64,000 nt of DNA from Streptomyces catenulae (GTDB lineage Bacteria; Actinomycetota; Actinomycetes; Streptomycetales; Streptomycetaceae), in the NCBI RefSeq assembly GCF_000718015.1, contig NZ_JODY01000002.1, positions 372,001-436,000 of the forward strand, in the 5' to 3' direction. The position numbers were made by a program, and so were the translations under genes. The notes below the pieces were generated by a model that searched no databases, was not told the origin of the DNA, and was given only the letters and a program-made list of their open reading frames with translations. This document shows, piece after piece, positions 21,495 through 52,083 of this stretch. Position 1 is the stretch's first letter. Each line of letters begins with the position of its first letter.

Positions 21495-21558
21495 CCCGGT
21501 GCGGGCGCTGATGACGCCCGCACCGGTGGATATCCATCCATCAACATGAGGAGTATCC

Positions 21559-23449: not shown

Positions 23450-23584
23450 GCACCGGTGCGGGCCCGGCGACGGGCCCGCACCCGCCCGGCCGCCCCGGGG
23501 CGGCCGGGTCCACGCGCGCGGCCGCCGACCCCTCGTGCAGCGGCGCCCGCCCGCGGTGCCGGCCCACCTGAAGGGAGCAGACCC

Positions 23585-24850: not shown

Positions 24851-25083
24851 GTGGACTCCTGTCGTTCGAAGGTGACGGCCATCCAGGGGCAGATCGTCTC
24901 GGCGCGGACGAGGGCTTGCGCGTCGGCCGCGTCCAGGTCGGCGTCCGGCCGCAGCCAGGCCCGCCGGTCCGCGAGGCGGAAGACGGCGGGGACGGTCTCC
25001 GCGCAGTGGCCGGTGCCGCTGCACAGGGCGTGGTCCACGCTCACCCTGCGGGTTGCGGTGGTCCGCTCGACGGGGCCGCTCAT
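24847..25083 (-). CDS. 3Fe-4S ferredoxin, P450 redox partner
   Basis: A 78-residue ferredoxin, too short to have its own entry in many gene callers. The cluster ligands follow the 3Fe-4S pattern typical of Streptomyces P450 ferredoxins: CSGTGHC (C-x5-C) near residue 21 and ETICPWMAV (final Cys-Pro) near residue 65. Its ATG overlaps the P450 stop and its stop overlaps the methyltransferase start, so P450, ferredoxin and methyltransferase are translationally coupled. It passes electrons to the adjacent P450. Confidence 0.9.
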   Translation of the reverse strand: MSGPVERTTATRRVSVDHALCSGTGHCAETVPAVFRLADRRAWLRPDADLDAADAQALVRAETICPWMAVTFERQEST

Positions 25084-29857: not shown

Positions 29858-32800
29858 TCAGTGGGTGCCGAGTTCCTCGTCGATGAGGCCGAAGAGCTGT
29901 TCGTCGGTGGCGGCGTCCAGCCCGTCGTCCGGGCCGGTGTCGTCGCGCAGTTCGGCGAGGAGCGCCGTCAACCGGGCCGCGGCGGCGGCCCGTTCGCCCG
30001 GTCCGGTGCCCTCCAGGGCGGCGGTGAGCCGGTCGAGCGCACCGTGCAGCGCCTCGGCGGGGGCGTCCGGCGTTCCGGGGACGTCGGGTGGCGCCGTGGA
30101 CCCGGTGGGGGTCAGCCGGGTGTCGAGGTCCTGGGCGAGCGCCGCGGGGGTGGGGTGGTCGAAGACGAGGGTGGCGGGGAGCCGGAGTCCGGTCGCCTCG
30201 TCGAGGGCGTTGCGCAGCGCCACCGCGGTGAGCGAGTCGAAGCCGAGGTCGGTGAGGTGGCGTTCGGCGGGGACGGTGCGGGCGGCCTGTCCGGCGGGGT
30301 GGCCGAGGACGGTGGCGACGCGTTCCTGGACGAGGGTGAGCAGCGCGGCGGTGCGGCCGGGGGCGTCCAGTGCGGCCAGCCGGGCGCGGAGGGCGTCGGC
30401 GTCGGCGCCGTGCGGGGCGGGGCGGGCCGCGGCGGGCAGCAGGGCGCCCAGGAGCGGGGGTGGGCCGCCGGGGCGTTGCCGCAGGGCGGCGAGGTCGAAG
30501 CGGACGGCGGTCAGGGCGGGTTCGGTGGTGGCCAGGGCGGTGTCGAGGAGGGCCACGCCCTGGTCGGTGGGGAGCGGGAGCACGCCGGTGCGGCGGAGTT
30601 GGGCGGCGAGGTCGTCGCGGTCCAACTGCTCCTCGCGTTCGACGGTGCGCTCCCAGTAGCCCCAGGCGAGGGCGGTGGCGGGGAGCCCGGCGGCGTGCCG
30701 GTGGCGGGCCAGCCCGTCCAGCAGGGCGTTGGCGGCGGCGTAGTTGGCCTGGCCGGGCGCGCCGAGCACCCCGGCGAGGGAGGAGAAGAGGACGAAGCGG
30801 CGGAGCGGCAGATGGGCGGTGAGGTCGTGGAGGTGGAGCGCGGCGTCGGCCTTCGGCCGCAGCACCCGGGCGACGCGGTCGGCGTCGAGGGCGGCGAGTA
30901 CCCCGTCGTCGAGGGCGGCGGCGGTGTGGACGACGGCGGTCAGCGGCCGGTCCCCGGGGACGGTGGCGAGGAGCCGGGCGAGGGCTTCCCGGTCCCCGGC
31001 GTCGCAGGCGGCGAGGGTGACGGTGGCCGCGCCGAGGTCGCGCAGGTCGCGGGCGAGGGCGGCGGCGCCGGGCGCGTCGGGGCCCCGGCGGCCGGTGAGG
31101 AGGAGGTGGCGGGCGCCGTGTGCGGTGACGAGGTGGCGGGCGACGAGGGAGCCGAGGACGCCGGTGCCGCCGGTGATCAGGACCGTGCCGTCGGGGTCGA
31201 GGGGCGCGTCGTCCGCCGGTGCCGGTGTCCCGGCGCGTTCCAGGCGGGGGACGAGGACGGTGCCGCGGCGCAGGGCGAGTTCGGGTTCGCCGGTGGCGAC
31301 GGCCGCGGGCAGGGTGCGCGGCGCCGCGGGGTCCGCGTCGGTGTCGAGGAGGACGAGGCGGCCCGGGTGTTCCTGCTGGGCGGAGCGGACCAGGCCCCAC
31401 AGGGCGGTGTGGGCGAGGTCGGGGACGGCGTCGCCGGGGGCGGCGGCCACGGCGCCGCGGGTGACGAGCACCAGCCGTCCGGTCAGGCGGGGGTCGGCCA
31501 GCCAGGTCCGGAGCAGGGTCAGCGCCGCGGTGGTGGCGGCGCGGGTCCGGTCGGCGAGGTCCCCGGTGGGCGGGGTGTCCTCGGGTCCGGGGAGCGCCGC
31601 CACGAGGACGTCGGGCGGCGCCTCACCCGCCGCCGTCGCGGTCTGCAGGTCGGCGAGCCGGTCGTGGTGGCGGGCGCCGGGGACGGGCGGGGCGGAGCCG
31701 AGGACGGCCCAGGTGCCGCCGCCCGGACCGGTGGCGGGCCGGGGGTGCCAGACGGTGCGGAACAGCGCGTCCCGGTGGGCGCCGCCGGATGCGGCGACGG
31801 CCGCCGGGTCGACGGGCCGCAGGGTGAGGGCGTCGGCGTGGAACACCGGGCGGCCGGTGCCGTCGGTGACGGTGACCGCGGCGGAGTCGGCGCCCTCGGG
31901 GGTGAGGGTGACGCGGAGCGCGGTGGCGCCGGGGGTGTGCAGACGGGCGCCGCGCCAGGCGAACGGGAGGCGCAGCCCGGGGCCGGTGAGCCCGAGCGGG
32001 TGGAGTGCCGCGTCGAGGAGGGCGGGGTGGAGCGCGAACCGTCCGGCGTCCGGGACGGCGTCGGGCAGTGCGACCTCGGCGTGGAGGGTGTCGCCGTCGC
32101 GCCAGGCGGCGGTCAGCCCGCGGAAGGCGGGCCCGTATCCGGCGCCGATGGTGTCGAGCCGGGCGTACAGCTCGTCGGGCGGTACGGGTACGGCGCCGGG
32201 TGGCGGCCAGGCGGTGGGGGCGGGGGCCGGGGCGGGGTGCCCGGCGGTGAGGGTGCCCTTGGCGTGCCGGGTCCAGGGGGTGTCGGGGGCGTCGCCGGGG
32301 GCGGCGTGGACGGTGACGGTGCGGTCGCCGGTGGCCGGGTCGGGGGCGTCGACGGCGAGGTGCAGGCGGACGGGTTCCTGCTCGGGGAGGAAGAGCGGGG
32401 CTTCCAGGAGGAGTTCGGCGATCTCGGGGCAGCCGGTCTCCTGCCCGGCACGGAGCAGCAGTTCGACGAAGGCGGTGCCGGGGAGGAGGACGGCGCCGCC
32501 GACCGCGTGATCGACCAGCCACGGCTGCGCCGCGAGGGAGATCCGGCCGGTGAGGACGGTGCCGCCGGTGCCGGGCAGCTGGACGGCGGCGCCCAGCAGC
32601 GGGTGGTCCACCCCGCCGACGCCGAGGTGGGCGGGGTCCCCGGCGGTGGTGGCGGGCGGCACCGGCCAGAACCGTTCGTGCCGGAAGGCGTAGGTCGGCA
32701 GGGCGGTCCGGGCTTCCCGGGTCTGCCGGGGGTCGGCGCCGAGGACGGCGGGCCAGTCCAGGTCCACGCCGTGGACGTACGCCTGCGCCAGCGACCGGGC

Positions 32801-35473
32801 GAAGTCGTCGGCGCCGCCCTCGTCGCGGCGGAGCGACTCCAGGACCACGCAGCCGTGTCCGGCGTCGTCCGCGATCTGTGTCACCGCCGCGGTGAGGACG
32901 GGGCGCGGGCTGACCTCGACGAAGGCGCGGACGCCGTGGTCCAGGAGGTGGGTGACGGCGCCCTGGAAGTCGACGGTCTCCCGGAGGTTGCGGTACCAGT
33001 ACGAGCCGTCCAGCGCCGCCGGGTCCACCGGGCCGCCGGTCACCGTCGACCAGAACAGTGTGCCGTTGCCGGGCAGCGGCGTCAGGTCGGCGAGGGCGGT
33101 ACGCAGCCGGTCCTCCACCTCCGCCACATGGGCGGAGTGTCCGGCGCGCTCCGCCGGGATGCGGCGGACGCGGACGCCGTCGGCGGCGAGCCGGTCGAGG
33201 ACCGCCTCGACGGCGGCGACCTCACCGGAGATCGTGGTGGCGGCCGGGGAGTTGACCGCGGCGACGGTGACCCGGCCGTCCCAGGCGGCGATCCGTTCCT
33301 CGACGGCGGCGCGGCCGAGCAGCACGGAGGCCATCGCGCCGGGCGTGGTGAGGGCGTTGAGGCAGGCGGCGCGCAGCGCGACGATCTTCGCCGCGTCGTC
33401 CAGGCTCAGCGCCCCGGCGACATACGCGGCGGCGATCTCGCCCTGCGAGTGTCCGACGACCGCCGCCGGGGTGACCCCGCAGCGGCGCCACAGTGCGGCG
33501 ATGCCCGTCATGACGGTGAAGAGCGCGGGCTGTACCACCGCCAGATCGTCGTAGGCGGCCGGGTCGTCGGTCTCGCCCTTCAGGAAGGCCGTCAGCGGTA
33601 CGTCCAGGTAGGGGGCGAAGGCCCGCTCGCAGCGGGCGACCCAGTCGGCGAACTCCGGCACGGTGCGCAGGAGTCCGGCGCCCATGCCGATCCACTGGGA
33701 GCCCTGGCCGGGGAAGACCAGTGCGACGCCCTCGCCGGGGTTCTCCGGGACGGTGCCGGTGACGGTGGCGGGGTGCTCGACCCCGGCGGCGAGCGCGTCG
33801 AACGCCGCGGCGGCGGCCGTCCGGTCGGCGGCCCGCACCACGGCCCGCTGCGCGAATCCGGTGCGCCCGGCGAGCGCGCCCGCCACCGCCGCGTCCGGCA
33901 GCTCCGCCGTCCGGTCGGTGCGCAGGAACTCCGCGAGCCGTCCGGCCTGGGCACGCAGTGCGGCGTCCCCGCGTCCGGAGACCGGCCACAGCAGCGGCGC
34001 CACGGGCCGGGGCGCGGCCGTCGCGTCGGTGTCCGGGCCGGGCTCGGCGGGCGGCGCCTGCTCGACGATCACATGGGCGTTGGTGCCGCTGACGCCGAAG
34101 GAGGAGACGCCCGCCCGGCGGGGGCGGTCCACGTCCGGCCAGGGCACCGCCTCCCGGACGACCTCCACGGCGCCCTCGGCCCAGTCCACATGGGTGGACG
34201 CCGGCGCGACATGGAGGGACGCCGGGACGGTCCCGTGCTCCATCGCCAGCAGCGCCTTCATCACCCCGGCGACGCCCGCAGCCGCCTGGGTGTGCCCGAT
34301 GTTCGACTTCACCGAACCGAGCAGCAACGGCGGAGCATCCGACGGGCGCTGGCCGTACGTGGCGAGCAGCGCCTGCGCCTCGATCGGATCACCCAACGCC
34401 GTACCCGTCCCGTGAGCCTCGACCACGTCCACGTCCGACGCCGACAGGCCCGCCGACGCCAGCGCCTGACGGATCACCCGCTGCTGCGCCGGACCACTCG
34501 GCGCCGTCAAACCGTTCGACGCACCGTCCTGATTCACCGCCGAACCCCGCACCACCCCCAGAATCCGACGACCCGCGCGCACCGCGTCCGACAGCCGCTC
34601 CAGGACCAGGACGCCCACGCCCTCGCTGAGGGAGGTGCCGTCGGCGGCGTCGGCGAAGGGCTTGCAGTGGCCCTCGGGCGAGAGGGCGCGCTGACGGCTG
34701 AACTCGATGAAGACGGTGGGGGTGGGCATCACGGTGACGCCCCCGGCCAGCGCCAGCGTGCACTCGCCGCGGCGCAGCGCCTGCGCCGCCAGATGGAGCG
34801 TCACCAGCGACGACGAGCACGCCGTGTCGAGGGCGAGGGTCGGGCCCTCAAGACCGAGGACGTAGGCGAGGCGTCCGGCCGCGACGCTGGAGGTGGTGCC
34901 GAGGTCGAAGTACCCCTCGACCTGGTCGAACACCGGCTGGAGGAGGAGGGAGTAGTTGGACGGGAAGGCGCCGGTGAAGACGCCGGTGCGGCTGCCCTTC
35001 ACCGTGGCCGGGTCGAGTCCGGCGCGCTCCAGCGCCTCCCACGACGTCTCAAGGAGCAGCCGCTGGATCGGGTCCATCGCCAGCGCCTCGCGGGGCGAGA
35101 TGCCGAAGAACGCGGCGTCGAAACCGGTGGTGGCGTCGAGGAAGCCGCCCTCGCGGACATAGCTGGTGCCGGGGTGTTCCGGGTCCGGGTCGTACAGCGC
35201 GTCCAGGTCCCAGCCGCGGTCGTCGGGGAACGGGCCCTGGACGCGGCCCTCGGCGGCGACCACGTCCCAGAGGTCTTCGGGCGAGTCGATGCCGCCGGGG
35301 TAGTGGCAGGCCATGCCGACGACGGCGATCGGCTCGTCGGCGGCGTCCCGCAACCGCTGGTTCTCCCGGCGCAGTTGCCGTGCCTCGGTCAGGGACGCTC
35401 GGAGCGCCTCGACGACCTTGGCGTCGGGGGCGTGCGGCGGGCGCGGCGCGCCGGGGGTGTCGGGGGTTTCCAT
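29858..35473 (-). CDS. Type I PKS, KS-AT-DH-KR-ACP, RAGH-type AT
   Basis: An 1,871-residue single-module PKS. N-terminal docking coiled coil (~18-42), KS (~48-472; Cys219, His353, His393), AT (~585-890; GHSQG Ser676), DH (~955-1160; [11 protein letters not shown] with His989, Asp1154), KR (~1425-1600; [12 protein letters not shown] at 1521-1523 as in B-type KRs, Tyr1578), ACP (Ser1747 in LGFDSL), C-terminal docking region ([14 protein letters not shown]). At the AT specificity site the sequence is ERAGHS (776-779 RAGH) instead of HAFH or YASH. xAGH variants are associated with ethylmalonyl-CoA or other large extenders, which fits the CCR gene in the cluster. No ER, so an alpha-ethyl enoyl product is expected. 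ATG follows GAGG; GTG at 35476 is adjacent. Confidence 0.92.
34266..34605 (-). repeat. Near-identical 340-bp KS segment, copy in second PKS
   Basis: This part of the KS (around the VEAHGTGT and NIGHTQ motifs) is almost identical at DNA level to 39814-40153 in the first PKS gene, constant offset 5,548 bp. Silent positions are conserved too, unlike flanking KS sequence. Suggests recent gene conversion between the two modules. Confidence 0.65.
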
Positions 35474-35498
35474 CACGAACCTCGTTGTTGCCGTGGCG

Positions 35499-38400
35499 TC
35501 AGGAGTGGTCGTCGAGCGCGAGCCGGATCAGGGCGTCCACGTCCATCGCGGCGATGTCGGCGGTGTCGCCGGGGCGCGGGGCGGTGGCGGGTGCGGCCGG
35601 GGGTGCCGGTTGCGGGGCGGGGGCGTCCGGGAGCAGCCGGGTGCGGAGGTATCCGGCGATGTCGGCGGGGGTGGGGTGGTCGAAGACCAGGGTGGAGGGC
35701 AGCCGCAGGCCGGTGGCGCGGGAGAGGCGGTTGCGGAGTTCGACGGTGGCGAGGGAGTCGAAGCCGAGGTCGCCCAGGCGGCGGTCGGGCGCCGCGTCCC
35801 GGTCCTGGGCGCCGAGCACCGCACGGACCTCCGCCTGCACCAACCGGCGCAGGAGGCGGTCGCGTTCGGCCGGGTCGGCGGCGCGCAGCCGCCGGGTGAG
35901 GCCGTCCGGCTCCGCGTCGGTCCGTGCGGGGGCGGCGCGGCGCGGGGCGGCGGGTGCGGCGGCGCGCAGCAGGGCGGGCGGTTCGGCGCCGGGGGTGTGC
36001 GCGGTGAGCGGGACGGGGGCCAGCAGGGGTTCGGCGGTGGCCGCCGCGGTGTCGAAGAGGGCGAGGCCCTGTGCGGTGGTGAGGGTGCCGATGCCGAGGC
36101 GGGCGAGGCGGTCGGTGCGGCTGCCCTGGTCGAGGTGGCGGGTGAGTCCGGTCGTCTCGTCCCACAGGCTCCAGGCGAGGGAGGTGGCGGGCAGTCCGTG
36201 GGCGGCGCGGTGGGCGGCGAGGGCGTCGAGGAAGGTGTTGGCGGCGGCGTAGTTGGCCTGCCCGGCGGTGCCCAGGAGGCCCGAGGCGGACGAGTACAGG
36301 GCGAACAGCGCCAGGTCGTGGCCGCGGGTGAGGTCGTGGAGGTGCCAGGCGGCCCGCACCTTGGGGGCGAGGACGCGGATGGTGCGCTCGGCGGTGAGGG
36401 AGGGGAGGACGCCGTCGTCGAGGACTCCGGCGGCGTGGACGACGGCGGTGAGCGGGTGGGCGGCGGGCACGCCGTCGATGAGCGCGGCGAGGGCGGCGCG
36501 GTCGGTGGTGTCGCAGGCGGCGACGGTCACCTCGGCGCCGAGGGCGGTCAGTTCGGCCGCCAGCTCGGTGGCGCCCGGCGCGTCGGGTCCGCGGCGTCCG
36601 GCGAGGAGGACATGGGCGGGGCGGTGGCGGCGTACCAGGTGGCGGGCGAGGGCGCCGCCGAGGGTGCCGGTCCCGCCGGTGATCAGCAGGGTGCCGTCCG
36701 GGTCGAGGGCGGGCGCGGCGCTCCCCGCCGTCCGTCCGGGTGCGCCGCCGTCCGTGGGTCGGTACGGCGTGAGGCGGAGCCGGGCGGCGCGTCCGGCGCG
36801 CAGGGTGAGCTGGGGTTCGTCGGCGTCGCGGGCGGCGGCCAGGGCGGCGGGCAGGGCGCGGCGGGAGGCGTCGGTGCCGTCGGTGTCCACCAGGAGGAAC
36901 CGGCCCGGGTTCTCGCTCTGCGCCGACCGCACCAGGCCCCACAGGGGCGCCGCCGCCAGGTCGGTGACGTCCTCCCCCGGTGTGGCGGCGACGGCTCCGG
37001 AGGTGACGATCACCAGGCGGGAGGCGGCGCAGCGGTCGTCGGCGAGCCACTGCTGGAGGGTGGCCAGGAGCGTGGTGGTGGCGGTCTCGGCGGCGCCGGG
37101 CAGGTCCGGGCCCGACGGTCCGGCGCACGGCAGCAGGACGGTGTCGGGCACCGGCTCCCCGGCGTCGAGGCGGGCGCGGAGCGCCGCGAGTCCGGTGTGG
37201 ACGGTGGGGCCCGGCGGGCAGTCGGCGGGGTCGGTGCCGAGCACCGCCCAGGTGGCGTCGGGTCCGGTCGCGGCGGGGAGGTCCCAGGGCTGCCAGACGG
37301 GGCGGTGCAGGGCGCGGCCGTCGGCGGCGGGGCGGAGCCGGTCGGCGGGGACGGGCCGGGTCACCAGGGAGCGGGCGGTGGCGACGGGGGCGCCGGTGGG
37401 GTCGGTCAGGTCGACGGCGACGGTGCCGGGGCCCTGCGGGGTCAGCCGGACCCGCAGCCGGTCGGCGCCGGTGGCGTGGCTGCGGACGCCGCTCCAGGTG
37501 AACGGCAGCCAGGGCCCGTCGGCGGAATCGTCGAGCCCGCCGTTCAGCAGCATCGGGTGGACCGCCGCGTCCAGGAGGGCCGGGTGGAGCGCGAACCGTC
37601 CGGCGTCCGGCACGGCGTCGGGCAGTGCGACCTCGGCGAGGAGGGCGTCGCCGTGGCGCCAGACGGCGGTCAGTCCGCGGAAGGCGGGCCCGTAGCCGAA
37701 GCCGCGGGCGGCGGTCCGGTCGTGGAAGTCGTCGAGCGGCACGGGGCGGGCGTCGGCCGGGGGCCAGGGGGCGGGGTCGGCCCCGTCCGGCGCGGGCTCC
37801 TCGGCGGTGAGGGTGCCCGTGGCGTGCCGGGTCCAGGGGGCGTCGGGGTCGTCCGCGGGGCGGGCGTGGACGGTGACGGGGCGGTCGCCGGTGGCCGCGT
37901 CGGGGGCGTCCACGGCGACCTGGAGGTGGAGGGCGCCGCGCTCGGGGAGGAAGAGCGGGGCTTCCAGGACGAGTTCGGCGATCTCGGGGCAGCCGGTCTC
38001 CTGCCCGGCACGTAGCAGCAGTTCGACGAAGGCGGTGCCGGGGAGCAGGACGGCGCCGCCGACCGCGTGATCGGCCAGCCACGGCTGCGCGGCCAGGGAG
38101 ATCCGGCCGGTCAGCACGGTGCCGCCGGTGGCGGGCAGTTCGACGGCCGCGCCCAGGAAGGGGTGGTCCGCGGCGGTGACGCCGAGGGCTTCCGGGGCGC
38201 CGCGGCCGTGGGACGGGGCGGGCCAGAACCGTTCGTGCCGGAAGGCGTAGGTGGGCAGGGCGGTGCGCAGGGTCCGGGCGTGGGCCGGGTCGGCGCCGAG
38301 GACGGCGGACCAGTCCAGGTCCACGCCGCGGACGTACGCCCGCGCCAGCGACCGGGCCAGCCGGTCCGCGCCGCCGTCGCCGCGCCGCAGCGTCTCCAGC

Positions 38401-41258
38401 ACCACGCCCTCGTGCCCGCGCTCCTCCAGGATCCGGTCGACCGCCATCGTCAGCACGGGGTGGGCCGCCGCCTCGACGAAGACCCGGAAGCCGCGGTCGA
38501 GGAGGTGGCTGACGGCGCCCTGGAAGTCGACGGTCTCCCGGAGGTTGCGGTACCAGTACGAGCCGTCCAGCTCCGCCGGGTCCACCGGGCCGCCGGTCAC
38601 CGTCGAGCAGAACAGCGTGCCGTCGCCGGGCAGCGGGGTGATGTCCGCGAGGAGGGTGTGCAGCCGGTCGGCCAGGATCTCGGTCTGGGCGGAGTGCGAG
38701 GCGTAGTCGATGGGGATGCGGCGGGCCCAGATGCCGTCGGCGGCCATCCGGTCGAGGAACTCCGTCACCGCGGCGGCGTCGCCCGACACGGCGGTGGCGG
38801 ACGGGGAGTTGACGGCGGCGACGGTGAGGGCGCCGTCCCAGTCGGCGATCCTCGCGGCGGTCTCGGCGCGGCCCAGCATCACCGTGGCCATCGCGCCGCG
38901 CCCGGCCAGCTCGGTGAGGAGTCCGGCGCGCAGTGCGACGATCTTCGCCGCGTCGTCCAGGGTCAGCGCCCCGGCGACATGGGCGGCGGCGATCTCGCCC
39001 TGGGAGTGTCCGACGACCGCCGCCGGGGTCACCCCGTGGTGCCGCCACAGTGCGGCGAGGCCCGTCATGACGGTGAAGAGCGCGGGCTGCACCACCGCGT
39101 CGCCCTGGTCGAGGGAGACGGTGCTGTCCTCGTCGCGGAGCAGGGCGGTCAGCGACCAGTCCAGGTAGGGGGCGAAGGCCCGCTCGCAGCGGGCGACCCA
39201 GTCGGCGAACACCGGTGAGGCGTCGAGGAGTTCCCGCCCCATGCCCGCCCATTGGGAGCCCTGGCCGGGGAAGACCAGCACGGTGCCGCCGGTGGCGGCG
39301 CCCGCCGGGGCGGTGCCGGTGACGACGGAGTCCGGCTCCGCGCCGGTGGCGAGCGCCGCCAGCGCGGTGGCGGCGCCCGTCCGGTCGGCGGCGAGCGCCA
39401 CCGCCCGCCGCTCGAACCCGGTCCGTCCGGCGAGGGCGGCGGCCACCGCCGCGTCGGGCGCCCCGTCGTCGCCCCGCAGATACTCCGCCGTCCGTCCGGC
39501 CTGGGCGCGCAGTGCGGCGTCCCCGCGGCCGGAGACCGGCCACAGCAGCGGACCGGCGGCGCCGCGCGGGGCCGGAGCCGGTTCCCGTTCCACCGCGGGC
39601 GGTGCCTGCTCGACGATCACATGGACGTTGGTGCCGCTCATGCCGAAGGAGGAGACCCCGGCGCGGCGTGGCCGCCCGGTCGGCGGCCAGGGCGCGGCCT
39701 CCCGGACGACCTCCACGGCACCGGCCGTCCAGTCGACGTGCGAGGAGACCGCGTCGACATGGAGCGAGGCGGGGACGGTCCCGTGCTCCAGGGCGAGCAC
39801 GGACTTGATGACTCCGGCGACGCCCGCGGCCGCCTGGGTGTGCCCGATGTTCGACTTCACCGAACCGAGCAGCAAGGGAGGCGCATCCGACGGCCGTTGT
39901 CCGTACGTGGCGAGCAGCGCCTGCGCCTCGATCGGGTCACCCAACGGCGTCCCCGTCCCATGGGCCTCGACCATGTCCACGTCCGACGCCGACAGGCCCG
40001 CCGACGCCAGCGCCTGACGGATCACCCGCTGCTGCGCCGGACCACTCGGCGCCGTCAGACCGTTCGACGCACCGTCCTGATTCACCGCCGAACCCCGCAC
40101 CACACCCAGAATCCGGCGACCCGCGCGGAGCGCGTCCGACAGCCGCTCCAGGACGAGCATGCCCACGCCCTCGGCGGGACCGAAGCCGTCGGCGCCGTCG
40201 GCGAAGGCGCGGCAGCGGCCGTCCGGGGAGAGGGCGCGCTGACGGCTGAAGCCCTGGTGGACGCTGGGCCCGGAGAGGACCGTCGCACCCCCGGCCAGCG
40301 CCAGCGCGCACTCGCCCTGGCGGAGCGCCTGCGCCGCCAGATGGAGCGTCACCAGCGACGACGAGCACGCCGTGTCGACGGTCAGCGCCGCGCCCTCCAG
40401 CCCGAGCGCGTAGGAGATACGCCCGGAGGCGACGCTGTGGTGGGTGCCGGTCGTGTAGTACATGTCGCTGTCGGGGACCGGCCGGGCGGTCAGCGCGTGG
40501 TCGAAGTCGGCGACCCCGGCGTAGACCGCGGTGGGCGAGCCGCGCAGCGCCGCGGGGTCGATCCCGGCGCGCTCCAGCGCCTCCCACGACGTCTCCAGCA
40601 GCAGCCGTTGCTGCGGGTCCATGACCAGCGCCTCGCGGGGCGAGATGCCGAAGAACGCGGCGTCGAACTCCGCGGCGCGGTCGAGGAAACCGCCCCCGCG
40701 GACATAGCTGGTGCCCGACCGGTCGGGGTCCGGGTCGTAGAGCGCGTCCAGGTCCCAGCCGCGGTCGGTGGGGAGCGGGCCGATGGCGTCGTCCCCGGCG
40801 GCGAGCAGCCGCCAGAGGTCTTCGGGCGAGTCGACGCCACCGGCGAAGTGGCAGGCCATCCCGACGATGACGACGGGGTCGTCGTCGGCGGCGGGCCCGG
40901 TCGGTTCCGCGGCGGGGGCATCGGCCGGAGCGGTGTCCGACGGGGCGTCCGCGGGCGGCGCGGAGTCCGCCGTCCGCAGGGTGTCGAGGAAGGCGGCGAG
41001 CGCCACCGGGGTGGGGTGGTCGAAGACCAGGGTGGACGGCAGGCGCAGCCCGCTCCCGGCGCCGAGCCGGTCGCGCAGGTCGACCGCGGTGAGGGAGTCG
41101 ATCCCCAGGTCGAGGAAGGGCACCTCGGACGCGTCCTCCGGCACCGGGTATCCGAGCAGCTCCGCCAGGTGCGCGCGGACCACGCCGAGCAGCACCCGGC
41201 GCCGTTCCCCGCCGGGGCGGTCGGCGGCAGGCCAGGCGGGTGCCGAAGTCGATTCCAT
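35499..41258 (-). CDS. Type I PKS, loading ACP + KS-AT-DH-KR-ACP, methylmalonyl-type AT
   Basis: A 1,919-residue PKS whose first domain is an ACP (~18-95, Ser55 in LGIDSL), so a preformed starter must be loaded in trans. Then KS (~128-552; VDTACSS Cys298, His433, His473), AT (~655-960; GHSQG Ser752; DYASHS 851-856, the methylmalonyl YASH signature), DH (~1031-1240; [11 protein letters not shown]is1064, Asp1230), KR (~1520-1690; [12 protein letters not shown] 1613-1615, Tyr1670) and ACP (Ser1835 in LGFDSL). The C-terminal docking segment ([14 protein letters not shown]) should meet the N-terminal coiled coil of the next PKS. No ER, so an alpha-methyl-enoyl chain is expected. ATG at 41258 is backed by GGAGG. 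First gene of the minus-strand operon; divergent from the KAS III/isonitrile operon. Confidence 0.93.
39814..40153 (-). repeat. Near-identical 340-bp KS segment, copy in first PKS
   Basis: Partner of 34266-34605. The shared stretch includes long runs without mismatch, for example the region encoding [11 protein letters not shown] and [18 protein letters not shown], and conserves wobble positions. Confidence 0.65.
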
Positions 41259-41728
41259 GGGAAACGCGCCTCCAAATGAATCCGCGCGGTACCACGTGCC
41301 GGTCTCACACGGGCAGCGGAAAAGCGTCAACGACGCCCGGAACAATTCCGCACCGCGGCGTTCCGGACGACCGGTTCATTTGATACGCCGCAGCTCACGG
41401 GGAACGCAAGCGACGATCTCGGGGAACGGGACACACAAACGGCCGGGTGCCGTACCGTACGGAAGCGCGCCACCCCTACACTCTCCCGCATCCCCGCACG
41501 TCAGGAACTCATACCGGACGGCCTGTCGGCAACATCCCGCCCGCCCTGCACCCCGCGCGGCACCTTTAGAGCGGCTTTAGAATCACTTCAGAAACACGGC
41601 CTTTGATTGACAGGGAACGCCGCGGCGTCTTTTGCTGAGAACACCTCTCCCCGTGACGGGCGGAATGCGGCGCAGAAATGCACCGCAGGAATTCTCCGCC
41701 CGTTCTCTCTCTTCTCCAGAGGCTGGTC
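41259..41728. other. 470-bp divergent promoter region of PKS and isonitrile operons
   Basis: No gene. Toward the KAS III gene it holds a clear SARP box (41564-41592). Toward the PKS it holds two GGGGAACG copies 22 bp apart (41399-41406 and 41421-41428), an AGGGGT-type element (ACCCCTA at 41472-41478 on the plus strand) and a GGAGG ribosome site before the PKS ATG. Confidence 0.6.
41564..41607 (+). promoter_or_regulatory. SARP box and -10 for the isonitrile/KAS III operon
   Basis: Three heptamers CTTTAGA, CTTTAGA and CTTCAGA start at 41564, 41575 and 41586: exact 11-bp spacing. The third repeat ends 8-9 nt before a -10-like TTTGAT (41602-41607). This geometry is the known SARP-binding arrangement. 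The SARP encoded at 45769-46542 is the natural candidate activator. Confidence 0.8.
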
Positions 41729-42766
41729 GTGAACATGAGCGGAATACCTCCCGGGGCGCCCGGACGCGCCGCCGTACTGTGCGGTGTGGGCGGTCGGCTG
41801 CCCGAACGGGTCGTCAGCAACGCGGAACTCTCCGCGCGGCTGGAGACCACCGACGAGTGGATCACCACCCGCACCGGCATCCGCAACCGCCGCGCCGCGG
41901 CCCCCGGTGAGGCCACCTCCGACCTGGCCGTCGCGGCCGGACGGCGGGCGCTGGACGCGGCGGGCGGCGAACCGGCGGACACCGTCCTGGTCGCCACCGT
42001 CACCCCCGACCGCCGCTGCCCGGCCACCGCTCCCCTGGTGGCCGCCCGGCTCGGGCTGACGGGCGCCGCCGCCTTCGACGTGTCGGCGGTCTGCACCGGC
42101 TTCCTCTACGGGCTCGCCACCGCCGCCGGGCTGATCGCCGCGGGCGTCTCCACCCGCGTTCTGCTGATCGGCGCGGACGTCTACTCGTCCGTCGTCGACC
42201 CGACCGACCGCACCAACGCCATCATCTTCGGCGACGGCGCCGGGGCGGTCGTCCTGCGTGCCGGTTCGCCCGACGAGCCGGGCGCGGTGGGCCACTTCGA
42301 CCTCGGCAGCGACGGCGGCGCGGAGGAGGCCATCCTCATCGCGGCGGGCGGCTCCCGCAGCCCCCTCACGGCGCAGACCCCGCGCGCCGACCGGCACTTC
42401 GCGATGCGCGGCAAGGAGGTCTACCGCCAGGCGGTGACCCGGATGACCGCGTCCGCGCGGACCACCCTCGCCGCCGCCGGATGGCACCCCGACGACGTCG
42501 ACCACCTCGTCGCCCACCAGGCCAATCTGCGCATCCTGCACTCCGTGGCGGACGGGCTCGGCGTCGCCCGGGAGCGGTGCGCCCGGCACCTCGTCGACGT
42601 CGGCAACACCGGCGCCGCCTCCATCCCGCTGGCCCTCGACGACGCCCACGCCACCGGTGCGCTGACACCGGGCGCCCGGGTGCTGCTCACCGGCTTCGGT
42701 GGCGGCCTCACCTGGGGCTCGTGCGCACTGCGCTGGCCCGACCTCAGCCCCGCGACCGACCGGTGA
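41729..42766 (+). CDS. Ketoacyl-ACP synthase III
   Basis: A 345-residue KAS III (FabH-like) enzyme. The catalytic triad is visible: Cys122 in [11 protein letters not shown], His in [13 protein letters not shown], Asn in [15 protein letters not shown]. FabH signatures [12 protein letters not shown] and [13 protein letters not shown] also occur. It condenses an acyl-CoA starter with malonyl-ACP; the free ACP is encoded next. Because the ScoE/ScoD-like genes follow, one reading is that it makes the C4 (acetoacetyl) unit that host FAS enzymes turn into crotonyl-ACP, the acceptor for glycine. It could alternatively build a different enoyl acid. The GTG at 41729 has AGAGG 6 nt upstream; the ATG 6 nt later is the alternative. 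First gene after the SARP box. Confidence 0.88.
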
Positions 42767-42789
42767 CCGACCGGCGGAAAGGACCGGCG

Positions 42790-43038
42790 ATGACCCACGC
42801 CACGTACGACCGACTGACCGCCCTCCTGGGCGAGTTCCACGACGCCCCGGCCGAGGCGCTGACCCCGGAGGCAACCTTCGTCGAGCTGGGCGTCGACTCG
42901 CTGACGATGGTCGAGATCGCGCTGCGCATCGAGCGGACCCTCGGCATCGAGGTCGGCGACGACGAACTCACCGAGGACCTGACGCTGGCACAGACCGTGC
43001 GGCTGATCGACGCCAAACTCCCCGCCGACGCCGCCTGA
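42790..43038 (+). CDS. Free acyl carrier protein
   Basis: An 82-residue discrete ACP. The phosphopantetheine Ser is in [20 protein letters not shown] near residue 38, followed by the acidic helix II/III region ([20 protein letters not shown]). GGAAAGGA lies 6 nt before the ATG. It sits between KAS III and the ScoE-like enzyme, the place of ScoB in isonitrile lipopeptide clusters, and should carry the enoyl intermediate to which glycine is added. Confidence 0.9.
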
Positions 43039-43070
43039 CCCCCCTCCCCCGCCACCTCCCAGGAGCCCCC

Positions 43071-43958
43071 ATGCAGATCACCCCGCAGGCCGGAAAGCAG
43101 CTCGGCGTCACCGTCGAGGGCTTCGACCACACCACCGCCTCCGAGGCGGCCGTCGCACGCGTCCTGTCCGCCGTCTACGAGCACAAGATCGTCGTGCTGA
43201 AGGGGCAGCACCTCTCCCCGCAGTCCTTCCACGACCTGGGCTCCCGGTTCGGCCGCCCCGAGGCGTACTACGAGCCGATGTACCACCACCCCGACAACCC
43301 CGACATCTTCGTCTCGTCGAACGTGCCGGAGAACGGCAAGCAGATCGGCGTCCCCAAGACCGGCAAGTTCTGGCACGCCGACTACCAGTTCATGCCGGAC
43401 CCGTTCGGCATCACCCTCATCCACCCCCAGGTCGTCCCGGAGAAGAACCGCGGCACCTACTTCCTCGACATGGGCGCCGCCTACCGGCGGCTGCCCGACG
43501 AGCTGAAGCAGGCGGTGGCGGGCACCAACGGGCGGCACAGCGTCCGCAAGTACTTCAAGATCCGCCCGTCGGACGTCTACCGCCCGATCTCGGAGATCAT
43601 CGAGGAGGTCGAGCGGAAGACCCCCGCGGTGCTCCACCCCACGACCTTCACCCACCCCATGACCGGCGAGACCGTCCTCTACCTCAGCGAGGGCTTCACC
43701 GTCGGTCTGGAGGACGCCGACGGCACCCCGCTCGACGACGCGCTCCTGGCCCGGCTGTTCAAGGAGACCGGCCAGCTCGACGAGGAGCTGACGCACGAGG
43801 CCCTCCACCTCCAGGAGTTCGGCAAGGGCGACCTGCTGATCTGGGACAACCGCAGCCTCATCCACCGCGCCCGCCACACCACCACCCCCGAGCCGACCGT
43901 CTCGCACCGCGTCACCGTCCACGACGCCCGCCCGCTGTACGAGACGGCGGCCGCGTGA
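43071..43958 (+). CDS. ScoE-like non-heme Fe(II)/2-oxoglutarate enzyme, isonitrile forming
   Basis: A 295-residue TauD-fold dioxygenase. Iron ligands: His102 and Asp104 in [11 protein letters not shown] and His265 in SLIHRARH. From memory of ScoE, its substrate residues Tyr96/Tyr97/Tyr101, Lys193, His299 and Arg310 correspond here at a constant offset of 30 to Tyr66/Tyr67/Tyr71 (EAYYEPMY), Lys163 (YFKIRP), His269 and Arg280 (SHRVTV). The blocks [19 protein letters not shown] and [19 protein letters not shown] are also strongly ScoE-like. ScoE oxidatively decarboxylates an N-carboxymethyl-3-amino acid to the isonitrile acid. AGGAG precedes the ATG; the stop overlaps the ScoD-like start by 4 nt (GTGA). 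Confidence 0.9.
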
Positions 43959-44467
43959 GCGCCACCGGCACAGCCGAACCGGACCTGCTGACCCGGGTGC
44001 TCGCCCCCTACAAGGCGCACTGCACCTATCTGCGGTCGGCGGAGGTCACCGCGGACGACGGGACACTCACCGCCCGCGGCGAGTTCGCCATCCCCGAGTC
44101 CTGCTACATCGACGACACCGGGCACCTCAACTCCGTCGAGGTCAACATCTGCTACAACCAGCTGATGTACTACGCCCTCGCGGTCGCGGTGCGGGACCGG
44201 CTGCTGCCGCAGTTCGCGGAGTGGACGATGGCGGACTACTGGAAGCGGCAGCTCCCCGACATCCTCATCGTCCGCTTCGAGAGCCGCTTCCCCCGGCCGG
44301 TCGACCCGCGCGCCTTCCAGGGAGAATTCACCCTGAAGCGGCTGACCCGGCGCACCCCCCGCGGCGGCACCCCGCTCCTGATCGCCGAAACCACCCACCG
44401 CTACCACGACGCACACGGCGGCCGGTGCCAGGGCGAGGCCACCCTCGCCCTGACCCGACTGCCCTGA
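43955..44467 (+). CDS. ScoD/FcoT-like thioesterase (glycine-adding enzyme of isonitrile pathway)
   Basis: A 170-residue hotdog protein of the FcoT/ScoD family. Recognisable blocks are [40 protein letters not shown] and [20 protein letters not shown], followed by [20 protein letters not shown]. In isonitrile lipopeptide pathways ScoD catalyses conjugate addition of glycine to an enoyl-ACP and then hydrolyses the thioester, giving the substrate for ScoE. The GTG overlaps the ScoE-like stop, so the two are translationally coupled, the same pairing as in known clusters. Confidence 0.85.
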
Positions 44468-44528: not shown

Positions 44529-45305
44529 GTGCCGCACCCGCCCTCCCCCCGCACCGCGCCGACCGGTCCGTGGATCCGCCGCTTCGGCGCCGCCGACGGC
44601 GCCGTACCCCTGGTGTGCTTCCCGCACGCCGGTGGCTCGGCCGGCTCCTACCTGCCGCTGGCCAAGCAGCTGACGCCGCATGTCGAGACCTGGGCGGTGC
44701 AGTACCCCGGGCGCCAGGAGCGGTACCGCGAGACGCCGTTCACCGAGGTCACCGCGCTCGCCGACGCCGCCTTCACCGCCCTGCGCCCGCATCTCACCGG
44801 GCCCTACGCCTTCTTCGGGCACAGCATGGGCGCCCTCGTCGCGTTCGAGGTGGCCCGCCGGTGCGAGGCGGAGACGGGCCACGGGCCGGTGCGGCTCTTC
44901 GCCTCCGCGCGCCGGGCGCCGTCCGTACCGCACCGCGGCGCCACCGGATGGCGGGACGACGACGCGCTCGTCGCGGAACTGGAGCGGCTGGGCGGCACCA
45001 TCCCCGGCGCCCTGGACGATCCCGATCTGCGCGCCATGGTGCTGCCGGTGCTGCGCGCCGACTACCGGGCCGTGGAGGGGTACGTCTGCGCCGCCGGGGC
45101 GACGGTCGGCTGCCCGCTGACCGTGCTGTGCGGCGACAGGGACCCGGTCGTCACGGTCGCCGAGACCGACGCCTGGCGCCCGCACACCACCGGCGCGTTC
45201 GACGTCACGGTGCACCCGGGCGGCCACTTCTACCTCGACGCCCGCGCGGCCGAGGTCGCCGCCGGGATCATCGGTGCGCTGACCGGCCCAACACAGCGGC
45301 TCTGA
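44529..45305 (+). CDS. Type II thioesterase
   Basis: A 258-residue alpha/beta-hydrolase of the GrsT/RifR family. [20 protein letters not shown] (oxyanion region), [34 protein letters not shown] (nucleophile Ser), [11 protein letters not shown] (Asp) and HPGGHFYLD (His). AGGAAGG before the GTG. Such enzymes clear misprimed carrier proteins. Because no PKS protein here ends in a TE domain, it might also release the final chain. Confidence 0.9.
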
Positions 45306-45411
45306 CCCCCGGTTGGCGGGGCTCACGGTGCGCCCCTCCAACTGGGGGTGCCTCCCGCGCACACCCTTCGGCATCCTCGTCCGCGATGGCCGACAACCAA
45401 GGAGAACGACG

Positions 45412-45687
45412 GTGATCAGTCGGCTGCGGCCGCATCGGTACAGGTGGATGCCGCCGGACACGAGCGGCCTGGAGTCGCTGACCGGCCGGGAGCGGGAGGT
45501 TCTCCTCCTGGTGACCCAGGGGCTGTCCAACGCGGAGATCGCCGAATCCCTGGTGGTGTCCGCGGCGACCGTCAAGACCCACGTCGGACGGATGCTCGCC
45601 AAACTCCAACTGCGCGACCGCGTCCAGGCGGTGATCTTCGCGTACGAGTGCGGTCTCGTGCAGGCGGAAGGGGACCGTACCGGCTGA
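45412..45687 (+). CDS. Stand-alone LuxR-type HTH regulator
   Basis: A 91-residue protein that is little more than a LuxR/NarL C-terminal DNA-binding domain: [60 protein letters not shown]. There is no receiver, ATPase or ligand domain. AAGGAGAAC lies just upstream of the GTG at 45412. It is 106 bp behind the thioesterase gene and probably in the same transcript, converging on the SARP gene. It may bind DNA constitutively or depend on dimerisation with another regulator. Confidence 0.85.
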
Positions 45688-45768: not shown

Positions 45769-46542
45769 TCAGCCCACCAGCTGCATGTCCCGCGCCGCGC
45801 CGTCGGACCGCAGGATCGTCCGCTGCAACTCCCGCAGCTCCCAGGAGGGTTCGAGGCCCAGCTCACGGCGGATGGTGTCGCGGGCCGAGTGGTAGGTGCG
45901 CAGCGCCTCGGCGCGCCGTCCCGAGCGGGACATGCAGAGGATCAGCTGCCGGTAGAACGCCTCGTGCAGCGGATGCTCGGCGAGCAGCGCCCGCAGGACG
46001 CCGGTCATCTCCTGGTAGCGGCCCAGGGCGATGCCGGACGCCACGAGGAGTTCGGCGCACTCGATGCGCGCCTCCTCCGCCCACCGGGCGCAGCCGCCGA
46101 CGATGGGGCCCGTGGCCGCGCCGTCCAGCACCGTGCCCCGGTGCAGCGACCGGGCGGCGCCGAGCAGTTCCACGGCCCGTTCGTGGCCGCCCGCGCGGGC
46201 GGCGCGGCGACCGTCCCGCAGCAGGCACTGGAAGCGGTGCAGGTCCAGTTCGCCGGGGGCGAGCCGCAGGACGTAGCCGGGCGCCGTGGTGGCGATCGGG
46301 CCGCCGGGCCGTCCGGGGCGGGTGAGGAGCTTGCGCAGTTGGGACATGTGGACGTGGAGGGAGGCGGTGGCGCGGCGGGGCGGGGCGCTCCCCCAGATCT
46401 CGTTGCTCAACTCGTCCCGGGAGACGACGTGGTTGGCCCTGATGAGCAGCGCCGCCAGCAGGATCTGCATCTTCGGTGCGCTGACCGCCGCGACGGACCG
46501 GTCATCGGTCACCCGAAGCGATCCCAGAATCTCGTACCGCAC
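45769..46542 (-). CDS. SARP-family pathway activator
   Basis: A 257-residue Streptomyces antibiotic regulatory protein: an OmpR-like winged-helix domain (PKMQILLAALLIRANHVVSR, DELSNEIWGSAPPRRATASL, HVHMSQLRKLLTR, TTAPGYVLRL) followed by a bacterial transcriptional activation domain (LDLHRFQCLL; EHPLHEAFYRQLILCMSRSG; TYHSARDTIRRELGLEPSWE). Length and layout match ActII-ORF4/RedD-type small SARPs. The GTG start follows GAGGAA. Its predicted DNA target, 11-bp-spaced heptamers, is present upstream of the KAS III operon. A perfect 15-bp hairpin sits just upstream of its ribosome site, and four tandem heptamers lie further up. Confidence 0.93.
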   Translation of the reverse strand: MRYEILGSLRVTDDRSVAAVSAPKMQILLAALLIRANHVVSRDELSNEIWGSAPPRRATASLHVHMSQLRKLLTRPGRPGGPIATTAPGYVLRLAPGELDLHRFQCLLRDGRRAARAGGHERAVELLGAARSLHRGTVLDGAATGPIVGGCARWAEEARIECAELLVASGIALGRYQEMTGVLRALLAEHPLHEAFYRQLILCMSRSGRRAEALRTYHSARDTIRRELGLEPSWELRELQRTILRSDGAARDMQLVG

Positions 46543-46956: not shown

Positions 46957-48303
46957 TCAGGCGACCGTCTCGGCGGGCAACTCCCGTAGGGGGTTGAGGT
47001 TCTGGGCCCCGATGCGGGCGCGCAGCTCGGGGTCGGTGACGCCCAGCCCGGTCTCGGGCGCCATGCAGAGCACACCGACCTTGCCGACATGGCGGTTGAG
47101 CTGCACCGACCGCGCGGCCTCACCGACGTCGGCGAGCGGGTGCACGGCCGACAGGACCGGGGAGAGCAGGCCCAGCCGGAAGAGCCGGTTGCACTCCCAC
47201 TGTTCCTGGAGGTTGGCGCCGTGACTGCCCACGATGCGCTTGAGGTTCATCCACAGATAGCGGTTGTCGTAACTGTGCTGGTAGCCGGTGCTGGAGCCGC
47301 AGGTGACGACGGTGCCCCCGCGGCGGACCACGAACACCGAGATCCCGAACGTGGCCCGGCCCACGTAGTCGAAGACGACGTGCGGGTCCTCGCCGACCGC
47401 CGCCCGGATGGCGCGGCCCAGCCGTTTGCCGCGTTCGATGGTCTCCTCGGGACCGGGCGCGCCGTCGTCCACGCCGATCTCCCGGCGGTCGATCACCACC
47501 TCGCAGCCCAGTTTCCGCAGCAGTTGCGCCTTGTGCTCCGAGCCGACGACACCGACGGGGATGCCGCCGGCGTTCTTCACCATCTGGACGGCGAAGGAGC
47601 CGAGCCCTCCGGCGGCGCCCCAGATGAGCACGATGTCGCCCTGCTTGATCCGGGCGCCCTTGTCGCTCACCAGCATGCGGTAGCTGGTCACGGCGGTCAG
47701 CATGGTGCTGGCCGCCTCCTCCCACGTCAGATGGGCGGGCTTGTCGAGGAGTTGGCTGGCCCGGACGACGGCGTAGTGGGCGAGCCCGCCGAAGTTGGTC
47801 TCGAAGCCCCAGGCGCGCTGGCCGGTGCCGAGCATGCCGTCGGCGTGGGTGGCGGGCTCCTGGTCGTCCACCTGGACGCAGCTGACCACGACATGGTCGC
47901 CGGTACGCCAACGGCGCACGCCGGTCCCGGTCTTGACCACCACTCCGGCCGCGTCCGAGCCGATGACCTGGTACGGACGGTCGTGGCGGGTGGCGAAGCC
48001 GCCCTCCCGGGCGTACTTCTTCAGGAAGGTGAACGTCGGCAGCGGTTCGAACATCGCCGACCACACGGTGTTGTAGTTGATCGAGCTGGCCATGACGGCG
48101 ACGACCACCTCGTCCGGCGCGATCTCCGGCATCGGCACCGGGCCGACGTGCAGGGACTTGCGGACGTCCTTGTCCTCGACGCCGTCGAACAGGTGGATGT
48201 CCTCGGCGCGGAGATGGGCGGCGAGATACTCGTCCGGCAGTTCGTGCCGTTCGAGTTCTTCCGGTGTGGCTCCGCCGAGCAGAGCATCAGCCAAGGAATC
48301 CAC
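46957..48303 (-). CDS. ccr: Crotonyl-CoA carboxylase/reductase
   Basis: A 448-residue CCR of the medium-chain dehydrogenase/reductase superfamily. Family-specific stretches are SSINYNTVWSAMFEPLPTF, RPYQVIGSDAAGVVVKTGTG, AWGFETNFGGLAHYAVVRAS, the nucleotide site IWGAAGGLGSFAVQMVKNAG, and DYVGRATFGISVFVVRRGGT with TGYQHSYDNRYLWMNLKRI. It reductively carboxylates crotonyl-CoA (or longer enoyl-CoAs) to ethylmalonyl-type extender units. GAAGGGAAG precedes the GTG at 48303. Within this cluster it should feed the RAGH-type AT of the second PKS. It could also draw on the crotonyl pool shared with the isonitrile branch. Confidence 0.95.
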   Translation of the reverse strand: MDSLADALLGGATPEELERHELPDEYLAAHLRAEDIHLFDGVEDKDVRKSLHVGPVPMPEIAPDEVVVAVMASSINYNTVWSAMFEPLPTFTFLKKYAREGGFATRHDRPYQVIGSDAAGVVVKTGTGVRRWRTGDHVVVSCVQVDDQEPATHADGMLGTGQRAWGFETNFGGLAHYAVVRASQLLDKPAHLTWEEAASTMLTAVTSYRMLVSDKGARIKQGDIVLIWGAAGGLGSFAVQMVKNAGGIPVGVVGSEHKAQLLRKLGCEVVIDRREIGVDDGAPGPEETIERGKRLGRAIRAAVGEDPHVVFDYVGRATFGISVFVVRRGGTVVTCGSSTGYQHSYDNRYLWMNLKRIVGSHGANLQEQWECNRLFRLGLLSPVLSAVHPLADVGEAARSVQLNRHVGKVGVLCMAPETGLGVTDPELRARIGAQNLNPLRELPAETVA

Positions 48304-50231: not shown

Positions 50232-50630
50232 GTCATTCCTCTCGCCCGCCGCGCGCCGCGGCCGGATGTCGGGCAGCCGGAGCGGCCGCCCCGCCGCCGT
50301 TCCGCTTGTACCGCCCGCCGCTGTGTCCGTGTTCCGGGGCGGCTTGCGCCCCGCTCGCCCAACTCGGTGGTCAGGACCGCCGTCGGCCCGGTTCGGTTGC
50401 CTCCCGTACCAGGCGGGAAGGGTTCCACGCCGAAGGCGTCGCACCATCGCTCCCGGTCGCCCCAGGGCCCCTGAAGCGGCGGACGAGGTCCGTGCTCCGG
50501 TCGCCGGGCGACATTCCGATTCCGGCCCGGCGGAGACCGCCGTGGCCCGGGCCCGGCCGCCCGCTCACCGCGCGGCCCCGGTCGTCCCCCTCCATTGTCC
50601 AGGCCCCGAACACCCTGCGCAGCGCACCCC

Positions 50631-51931: not shown

Positions 51932-52083
51932 CGTCTCCTTCTTCTGATGTGACTCTGGGTGGGTGTGAGGGGGTCATACGGGACCGGGGCGGTGGTCCGG
52001 GGGACGCGCCCGTGCGGGGCCGCCGCGGGACCGTGGAGGGGTGCCGTCCACCGGGCGCGGGGGTCGCGTGGCCGGTGCCGGTG

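Follow-up and report, generated by a model that had tools for sequence, protein, structure and literature searches.

What do isonitrile-forming genes make when they stand beside a polyketide synthase (PKS) instead of a nonribosomal peptide synthetase (NRPS)? The question is raised by a 64,000-nucleotide stretch of the Streptomyces catenulae genome (assembly GCF_000718015.1, contig NZ_JODY01000002.1, positions 372,001 to 436,000; hereafter the window, with coordinates counted from its first letter), in which relatives of the isonitrile-forming enzymes ScoE and ScoD are encoded divergently from a small modular PKS. Our analysis suggests that these genes probably form a cluster for a polyketide primed by a β-isocyano acid. 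The original prediction, made from the letters of the window, had proposed such a product; it is still the best-fitting model and is strengthened by the finding of a ScoC-type acyl ligase, but the accompanying claim of a new compound class was too strong, and a variant fits better.

ScoE and ScoD

The ScoE-like protein aligns with the solved ScoE structure 6DCH without a gap over 291 residues, at a constant offset of 30 and with 219 of the 291 residues identical; all 20 check positions, iron and substrate residues included, are the same in the two proteins. His132, Asp134 and His295 of ScoE, which we take to be the iron ligands, agree in the window protein. The residues given as mutated or in contact in the available text of PMC7949033 (Tyr96, Tyr97, Tyr101, Arg195, Lys193, Arg310, Arg157 and His299) are also among the 20 positions kept, and at position 158 that text has Asn where the compared 6DCH chain has Gly. 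The NCBIfam model for ScoE, NF049937, scores 510.5 bits against an equivalog cut-off of 400, and that for ScoD, NF049938, scores 276.5 bits against 250. The nearest solved relatives of ScoD are 5WSX and 5WSY, presumably SAV606, and the start of its gene overlaps the ScoE stop by 4 bases (GTGA). Assignment of the ScoE-like protein as a TauD of other function was considered and rejected: taurine dioxygenase matches score far lower, and the two further TauD-like matches in the same genome reach 26-27% identity.

By sequence, the window thus appears to encode a true ScoE and a true ScoD. The original claims of a constant residue offset and of translational coupling between the two genes beside a free acyl carrier protein (ACP; 42790-43038) were borne out, and the protein lies inside the ScoE clade of the tree described below, not among TauD proteins of other function.

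Two divergent operons and no NRPS

Genes were called by codon-position GC and then scanned with Pfam and NCBIfam families, and maps of relatives were completed by tblastn. Two divergent operons emerge. The rightward operon runs from a β-ketoacyl-ACP synthase III (KAS III) through the free ACP, ScoE, ScoD and a stand-alone thioesterase (TE) to a small LuxR regulator, with a Streptomyces antibiotic regulatory protein (SARP) next to it on the opposite strand. The leftward operon, from 41258, holds PKS1, PKS2, a ketosynthase (KS) lacking an acyltransferase (AT), an acyl ligase, a P450 and a methyltransferase. In the list below, DH and KR are dehydratase and ketoreductase domains; G001 to G004 are genomes used for comparison, and G009 is that of a one-module locus discussed further on.

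41735..42766, plus strand: KAS III (FabH-like); Pfam ACP_syn_III and ACP_syn_III_C, NCBIfam fabH; reading frame from 41678, likely start 41735
42790..43038, plus strand: free ACP in the ScoB-like place; Pfam PP-binding, E 3.9e-13
43071..43958, plus strand: ScoE, iron/2-oxoglutarate isonitrile-forming oxidase/decarboxylase; 6DCH alignment, NF049937
43955..44467, plus strand: ScoD, enoyl-ACP glycine-adding thioesterase (FcoT family); NF049938, Pfam
44529..45305, plus strand: stand-alone (type II-like) TE; Pfam PF00975, 55-62% identity in G001-G004
45313..45687, plus strand: small LuxR-type regulator; Pfam GerE, kept in G001
45769..46542, minus strand: SARP-type regulator; Pfam BTAD and Trans_reg_C, kept in G001, G003 and G004
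35499..41258, minus strand: PKS1, loading ACP-KS-AT(YASH)-DH-KR-ACP; Pfam, motifs
29858..35476, minus strand: PKS2, docking-KS-AT(RAGH)-DH-KR-ACP; Pfam, motifs
27961..29799, minus strand: terminal KS, AT-less and ACP-less, with an N-terminal coil; Pfam, sequence, tree, relatives
26360..27946, minus strand: ScoC-type acyl ligase, 528 aa; comparison with ScoE loci, family scan
25080..26309, minus strand: cytochrome P450; Pfam, 67% identity in G004 and 54% in G009
24059..25024, minus strand: S-adenosylmethionine-dependent methyltransferase, left edge of the conserved cluster; Pfam, start probably inside the reading frame, present in G001, G003 and G004
46957..48303, minus strand: crotonyl-CoA carboxylase/reductase (CCR), the genome's second copy; TIGR01751, 543.5 bits against a cut-off of 378.55

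Judged by conservation, the cluster spans about 24059-46542, which is wider than the 41564..44467 first marked out, and its right limit perhaps lies as far out as the CCR at 48303. Every gene named in the original prediction was recovered, including the KAS III upstream of ACP-ScoE-ScoD and the divergent bimodular PKS, whose PKS1 starts near 41258 on the minus strand with an N-terminal ACP and is followed by PKS2; the ScoC-type ligase, the AT-less terminal KS, the P450 and the methyltransferase had been overlooked. The ligase was recognised through the gene order of Saccharopolyspora shandongensis. The active-site Cys, His and Asn of the KAS III are readable in its sequence, and its counterparts in G002-G004 are 71-75% identical (57-68% for the free ACP). 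Two other candidates were set aside: 45313-45687 is the LuxR-type regulator and not a free ACP, and the AMP-binding gene 19953-21494 was dropped as a ScoC candidate in favour of 26360-27946.

No condensation domain was found in the window genes scanned with Pfam, and a 3966-aa gene at 52084-63984 is ruled out as a hidden NRPS by its EndoU and Gln-deamidase domains. The genome has 22 Condensation matches, three of them on the same contig at 29.9, 35.7 and 166.9 kb, with ScoE at 415.1 kb; the nearest ends about 247 kb from ScoE. The absence of a ScoA-like NRPS from the window, as originally noted, is therefore upheld, and none lies just outside it.

Distribution among ScoE loci

ScoE relatives were sought in one genome per species with exact 8-residue patterns of the window ScoE, and the best 80 of the 105 loci found were kept, so that distant relatives are under-counted. 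Classified by two brief sequence signatures, HHxxxDG and DTACSS, within at most about 21 kb of each locus, 58 of the 80 loci are NRPS-type, 10 PKS-type, five both and seven neither, with chance motifs and contig ends included in the last two classes. Of the 58 NRPS-type loci, 45 have a KAS III of at least 60% identity immediately upstream of ScoE; in L014 this KAS III is a fragment. KAS III is thus a usual part of NRPS-type isonitrile clusters and not the distinguishing feature it had been taken for. The supposed uniqueness of the combination likewise gave way, both to the precedent of amycomicin and aerocyanidin in the available text of PMC13273461 and to the 15 of 80 loci with type I KS motifs. 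These include three of the window type (L002, S. benahoarensis; L003, Sacch. rosea; L005, Sacch. shandongensis), a one-module set (L053, L072, L074, L076) and eight further loci (L054, L056, L057, L059, L060, L061, L062, L064), S. virginiae among them.

A common core of KAS III, ACP, ScoE, ScoD, TE, PKS1 or its equivalent, KS-only protein and ligase occurs together in the window and in three other genomes (G002, G003 and G004; two from Saccharopolyspora and one from Streptomyces); the clusters carry either a single reducing module or a pair. Around this core, the window and G004 have PKS2, the P450, the methyltransferase and the SARP; of these, G002 has PKS2, and G003 the methyltransferase and the SARP. 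The window ligase shares 70-72% identity with its counterparts in G002-G004 and 51-60% with the majority of the other ligases at ScoE loci, including those of NRPS type; its best match in 391 further Streptomyces genomes reaches 63%, so that by this measure the window type is absent from them. The set of KAS III, ACP, ScoE, ScoD and ligase also accompanies NRPS clusters in L004, L009 and L041. For the AT-less KS, 12 further relatives of 604-658 aa and 59-91% identity stand among the best 14 of at least 120 protein-database hits, the nearest among the matches listed, at 91% and 84%, both being from Streptomyces; by this count the type appears rare but not unique.

The S. pinistramenti locus (L001; also L091-L092) keeps ScoE, ScoD, TE, LuxR, SARP and methyltransferase, with no KAS III, ACP, PKS, KS-only protein or P450 in the 40 kb examined and no such ligase in the genome at E 1e-100. 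The locus sits at a contig end, and the missing genes may reflect either decay of the cluster or a gap in the assembly.

What we call the modular-PKS isonitrile family is defined by consecutive genes for a loading-ACP reducing module, an AT-less KS and a ScoC-type ligase, accompanied by neighbouring ScoE and ScoD genes; its members are the window, G002-G004, G009, L072, L074 and L076, with L074 counted as a member without the loading-ACP motif. One-module loci of this kind (L053/G009, L072, L074, L076) occur in Streptomyces and Lentzea with ScoE, ScoD, PKS, KS-only protein and ligase colinear, except that L053 has a different gene order, with a P450 and a distant KAS III. Their PKS, KS-only proteins (support 98/94) and ligases (98/95, 99/96) are related to those of the window, whereas their ScoE and ScoD fall elsewhere in the trees and their KAS III is absent or just 41% identical; no description of them was found within the literature searched. 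In Microbacteriaceae, ScoE-ScoD pairs occur in Leucobacter and Agrococcus (L066-L070), where neither a KS motif nor a match to the ligase was found in the sequence examined; the ScoE of L069 (Leucobacter) and L070 (Agrococcus) are identical in the tree set.

Mosaic ancestry

In a ScoE tree of 81 rows, the window groups with L001, L002, L003 and L005 (99/95) within a 57-row clade (100/99), whose remaining 52 rows comprise L032 and 51 loci of NRPS type; 46 of those 52 have KAS III. In ScoE and ScoD trees of 30 matched rows, the four window-type clusters join ten NRPS-type ones (100/98 in both). Forcing the window type together with the modular family is rejected by approximately unbiased (AU) tests for ScoE (p 2.5e-58) and for ScoD (p 0.024). 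In the ligase tree of the matched rows, the window type joins the modular family (99/96), and forcing it with the NRPS type is rejected (AU p 0.0076); another ligase tree, built from 36 chosen loci and the window, also relates the ligases (98/95). The AU tests used 30 hand-chosen rows in groups named after earlier trees, and hence post hoc, and L063, among the ten rows of NRPS type, lacks a match to KAS III. A single clade (98/94) unites the KS-only proteins of the window type with those of G009, L072, L074 and L076. Because the ScoE/ScoD and ligase trees conflict reciprocally, the isonitrile-acid genes and the PKS-side genes appear to differ in ancestry. Judged by these trees, the cluster is a mosaic: its ScoE and ScoD belong with NRPS clusters, its ligase and terminal KS with a distinct family of modular PKS loci. 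More than one event of origin or conversion seems to lie behind the second module, given that the two G004 modules are sisters (100/100) while the window PKS2 pairs with that of G002 (100/99).

Proposed pathway

Gene identities, key residues, module domains, conservation and mosaic history are read from sequence, and the reactions of ScoE and ScoD are known for homologues: according to PMC11284099, a ScoD-type enzyme attaches glycine to an enoyl thioester, which it also hydrolyses. In the pathway that we propose, KAS III, the free ACP and a host reductase and dehydratase would make a short enoyl-ACP, probably crotonyl, and ScoD would place glycine on its β carbon and hydrolyse the thioester to give free N-carboxymethyl-3-aminobutanoate (CABA), which ScoE would oxidise to 3-isocyanobutanoate (INBA). 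A re-activating ligase is needed because ScoE turns free CABA into free INBA, as reported in the available text of PMC7949033; the ScoC-type ligase would re-activate the free acid and load it onto the N-terminal ACP of PKS1. Loading in trans fits a loading ACP that has no AT of its own. PKS1 (methylmalonyl by its YASH motif; KR, DH) and PKS2 (an atypical AT, perhaps using ethylmalonyl from the CCR; KR, DH) would then extend the chain, from a C4 starter, to about 2-ethyl-7-isocyano-4-methylocta-2,4-dienoyl-ACP. Finally, the chain would dock to the AT-less terminal KS, where a unit may be added from a carrier in trans or the chain released, with tailoring by the P450 and the methyltransferase. 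We infer the C4 starter length, the target of the ligase, the use of ethylmalonyl, the whole terminal-KS and tailoring step, and expression of the cluster.

Features of the assembly line accord with this order. The loading-ACP motif precedes the first KS in seven of eight modular clusters, and the KR motif is present in 11 of 11 modules and the enoylreductase (ER) motif in none. Head and tail segments of PKS proteins can be read as docking classes; here the PKS1 tail leads to the PKS2 head and the PKS2 tail to the KS-only head, and the sole module of one-module G003 bears a PKS2-type tail. The terminal KS has Cys-His-His and neither AT nor ACP. The ethyl branch is the weakest part: its basis is the RAGH motif that PKS2, alone among the 11 modules, has where xASH would stand, and the second CCR beside the cluster, which is 53% identical to the genome's other copy. 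According to PMC6490886, ATs that take exotic alkylmalonyl units typically have smaller residues at this motif.

Several observations weigh against the proposed pathway. PMC6164871 gives no specificity rule for the xAGH motif, which leaves RAGH without a confirmed specificity. No CCR match was found in the G003 and G004 genomes at E 1e-60, and G001 and G002 carry one only on other contigs, although the G002 contig ends 2.2 kb past the thioesterase and may hide an adjacent copy. L074 shows no loading-ACP motif, and neither it nor L076 a DH motif. Tailoring is not constant: the locus stretch of G003 has no P450 (nor PKS2), and the 25.8-kb contig of G002 has no P450, methyltransferase or SARP. 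The ScoC-type ligase could act on the enoyl acid and not the isonitrile acid, and the model does not account for what becomes of the chain once it reaches the terminal KS.

The strongest rival is the reverse order, reminiscent of cremimycin, in which PKS1 and PKS2 build a 2-enoyl chain, ScoD adds glycine and releases it, and ScoE and then the ligase and terminal KS act on a terminal isonitrile. PKS2 ends in DH-KR-ACP without a TE domain (Pfam), as does the cremimycin starter PKS, whose chain is released by CmiS1 in the available text of PMC11284099. We nevertheless think this order unlikely, as the operon of KAS III, ACP, ScoE and ScoD is common to NRPS clusters without a type I KS, the tail of the last module fits docking to the KS-only protein, and the PKS1 loading ACP needs an acid loaded in trans.

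Equally doubtful is a KAS III that stands outside starter supply, either as a FabH-like self-resistance copy or as a partner of the CCR in making an unusual extender unit. Each role has a precedent in available text: the isonitrile antibiotic amycomicin reportedly inhibits FabH, and a foreign fabH confers resistance (PMC13273461), and FabH-CCR pairs make branched extender units in the ossamycin and divergolide clusters (PMC6490886). Both sit poorly with the position of KAS III directly before ScoE in most NRPS-type loci, and with G003 and G004, which keep KAS III in genomes that gave no CCR match. That two unrelated pathways, an isonitrile-acid cassette and a small PKS cluster, merely adjoin one another is very improbable despite the divergent operons, their different histories and the S. 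pinistramenti locus with its ScoE-ScoD side and no PKS side, because the pairing is retained in four genomes of two families, the ScoC-type ligase sits in the PKS operon while the cassette has none, and G009, L072, L074 and L076 have a related PKS, KS-only protein and ligase with a ScoE and ScoD of their own.

Relation to known isonitrile systems

For the amycomicin and aerocyanidin pathways, Zheng, Clardy and Liu reportedly described in 2024 an isonitrile acid that a ligase loads onto an ACP and that a PKS then extends. The isonitrile lipopeptide NRPS clusters (sco of S. coeruleorubidus, SF2768, mycobacterial nrp) share with the window equivalents of ScoB-E (ACP, ligase, ScoD and ScoE), but the window has PKS1, PKS2 and a terminal KS in place of the NRPS, and its ligase lies in the PKS operon. 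The amycomicin and aerocyanidin pathways have ScoE- and ScoD-type enzymes and a PKS without an NRPS, as the window does. Candidate loci of amycomicin-like appearance (G005, G006, G007) have a PKS with an ER motif and a KS of another clade (100/100); the window PKS differs from these candidates on both counts. PMC13273461 reports the amycomicin cluster from S. virginiae, for which L059 is a candidate. The CmiS1/CmiS2 route to cremimycin, in the available text of PMC11284099, has a ScoD-type glycine addition and release that feeds a polyketide starter, as we propose here. Cremimycin has a flavin oxidase where the window has ScoE, so that an isonitrile is predicted and not an amine; no CmiS2-like flavin adenine dinucleotide oxidase was found among the cluster reading frames scanned with Pfam.

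Neighbouring genes

To the left, on the plus strand, 19953-24004 encodes an AMP-binding ligase, a nitroreductase, a GTP cyclohydrolase II, a 110-aa protein and a 4HBT thioesterase (Pfam). None of these genes stands beside the methyltransferase in G003 or G004, so they were ruled out as cluster members; the group may be a separate pathway. To the right, on the minus strand, 48711-50447 encodes a degenerate KS-like protein with the active-site Cys replaced by Arg (DTARSS); its S. pinistramenti counterpart has Gln (DTAQSS), as in KSQ decarboxylases, and a SARP adjoins the gene in both genomes. The minus-strand stretch 50798-63984 holds the 3966-aa protein, polymorphic-toxin-like in its domains, and a neighbour with a membrane segment, and counterparts of these genes lie beside the S. 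pinistramenti ScoE locus with their order retained.

What the cluster may mean

As a kind, ScoE and ScoD with a PKS and no NRPS are already precedented by amycomicin and aerocyanidin. The novelty lies in a modular form that is fed by KAS III, laid out in two operons and equipped with a terminal KS, together with its mosaic origin; no description of a ScoE cluster with a modular PKS appeared among the full-text literature matches listed, a search that lay outside the key primary isonitrile-pathway papers. We consider it about an even call that these loci represent a distinct modular isonitrile polyketide family, in which the isonitrile-acid cassette known from clusters for copper-binding lipopeptides was exchanged onto a small modular PKS, with module number, extender units and AT-less terminal KS varying from species to species, and in which the products would be mono-isocyano dienoyl compounds with an undescribed KS-based ending.

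The ScoB-E set of isonitrile-acid genes suggests a portable starter cassette, joined in evolution to NRPSs and to more than one kind of PKS, of which the conflict between the ScoE/ScoD and ligase trees is a statistically supported case of exchange. The model also sets a definite chemical target, the protonated C12H17NO2 acid ahead of the terminal KS (calculated m/z 208.133), and offers a small assembly line for probing the role of an AT-less terminal KS and the ability of PKS ketosynthases to take isonitrile starters. Antibacterial activity of monoisonitriles is being investigated, according to PMC11290450. If the proposed pathway is correct, this rare type of cluster would be a new branch of a known route to reactive, metal-binding molecules, one in which the isonitrile acid is extended on a polyketide and not a peptide assembly line.

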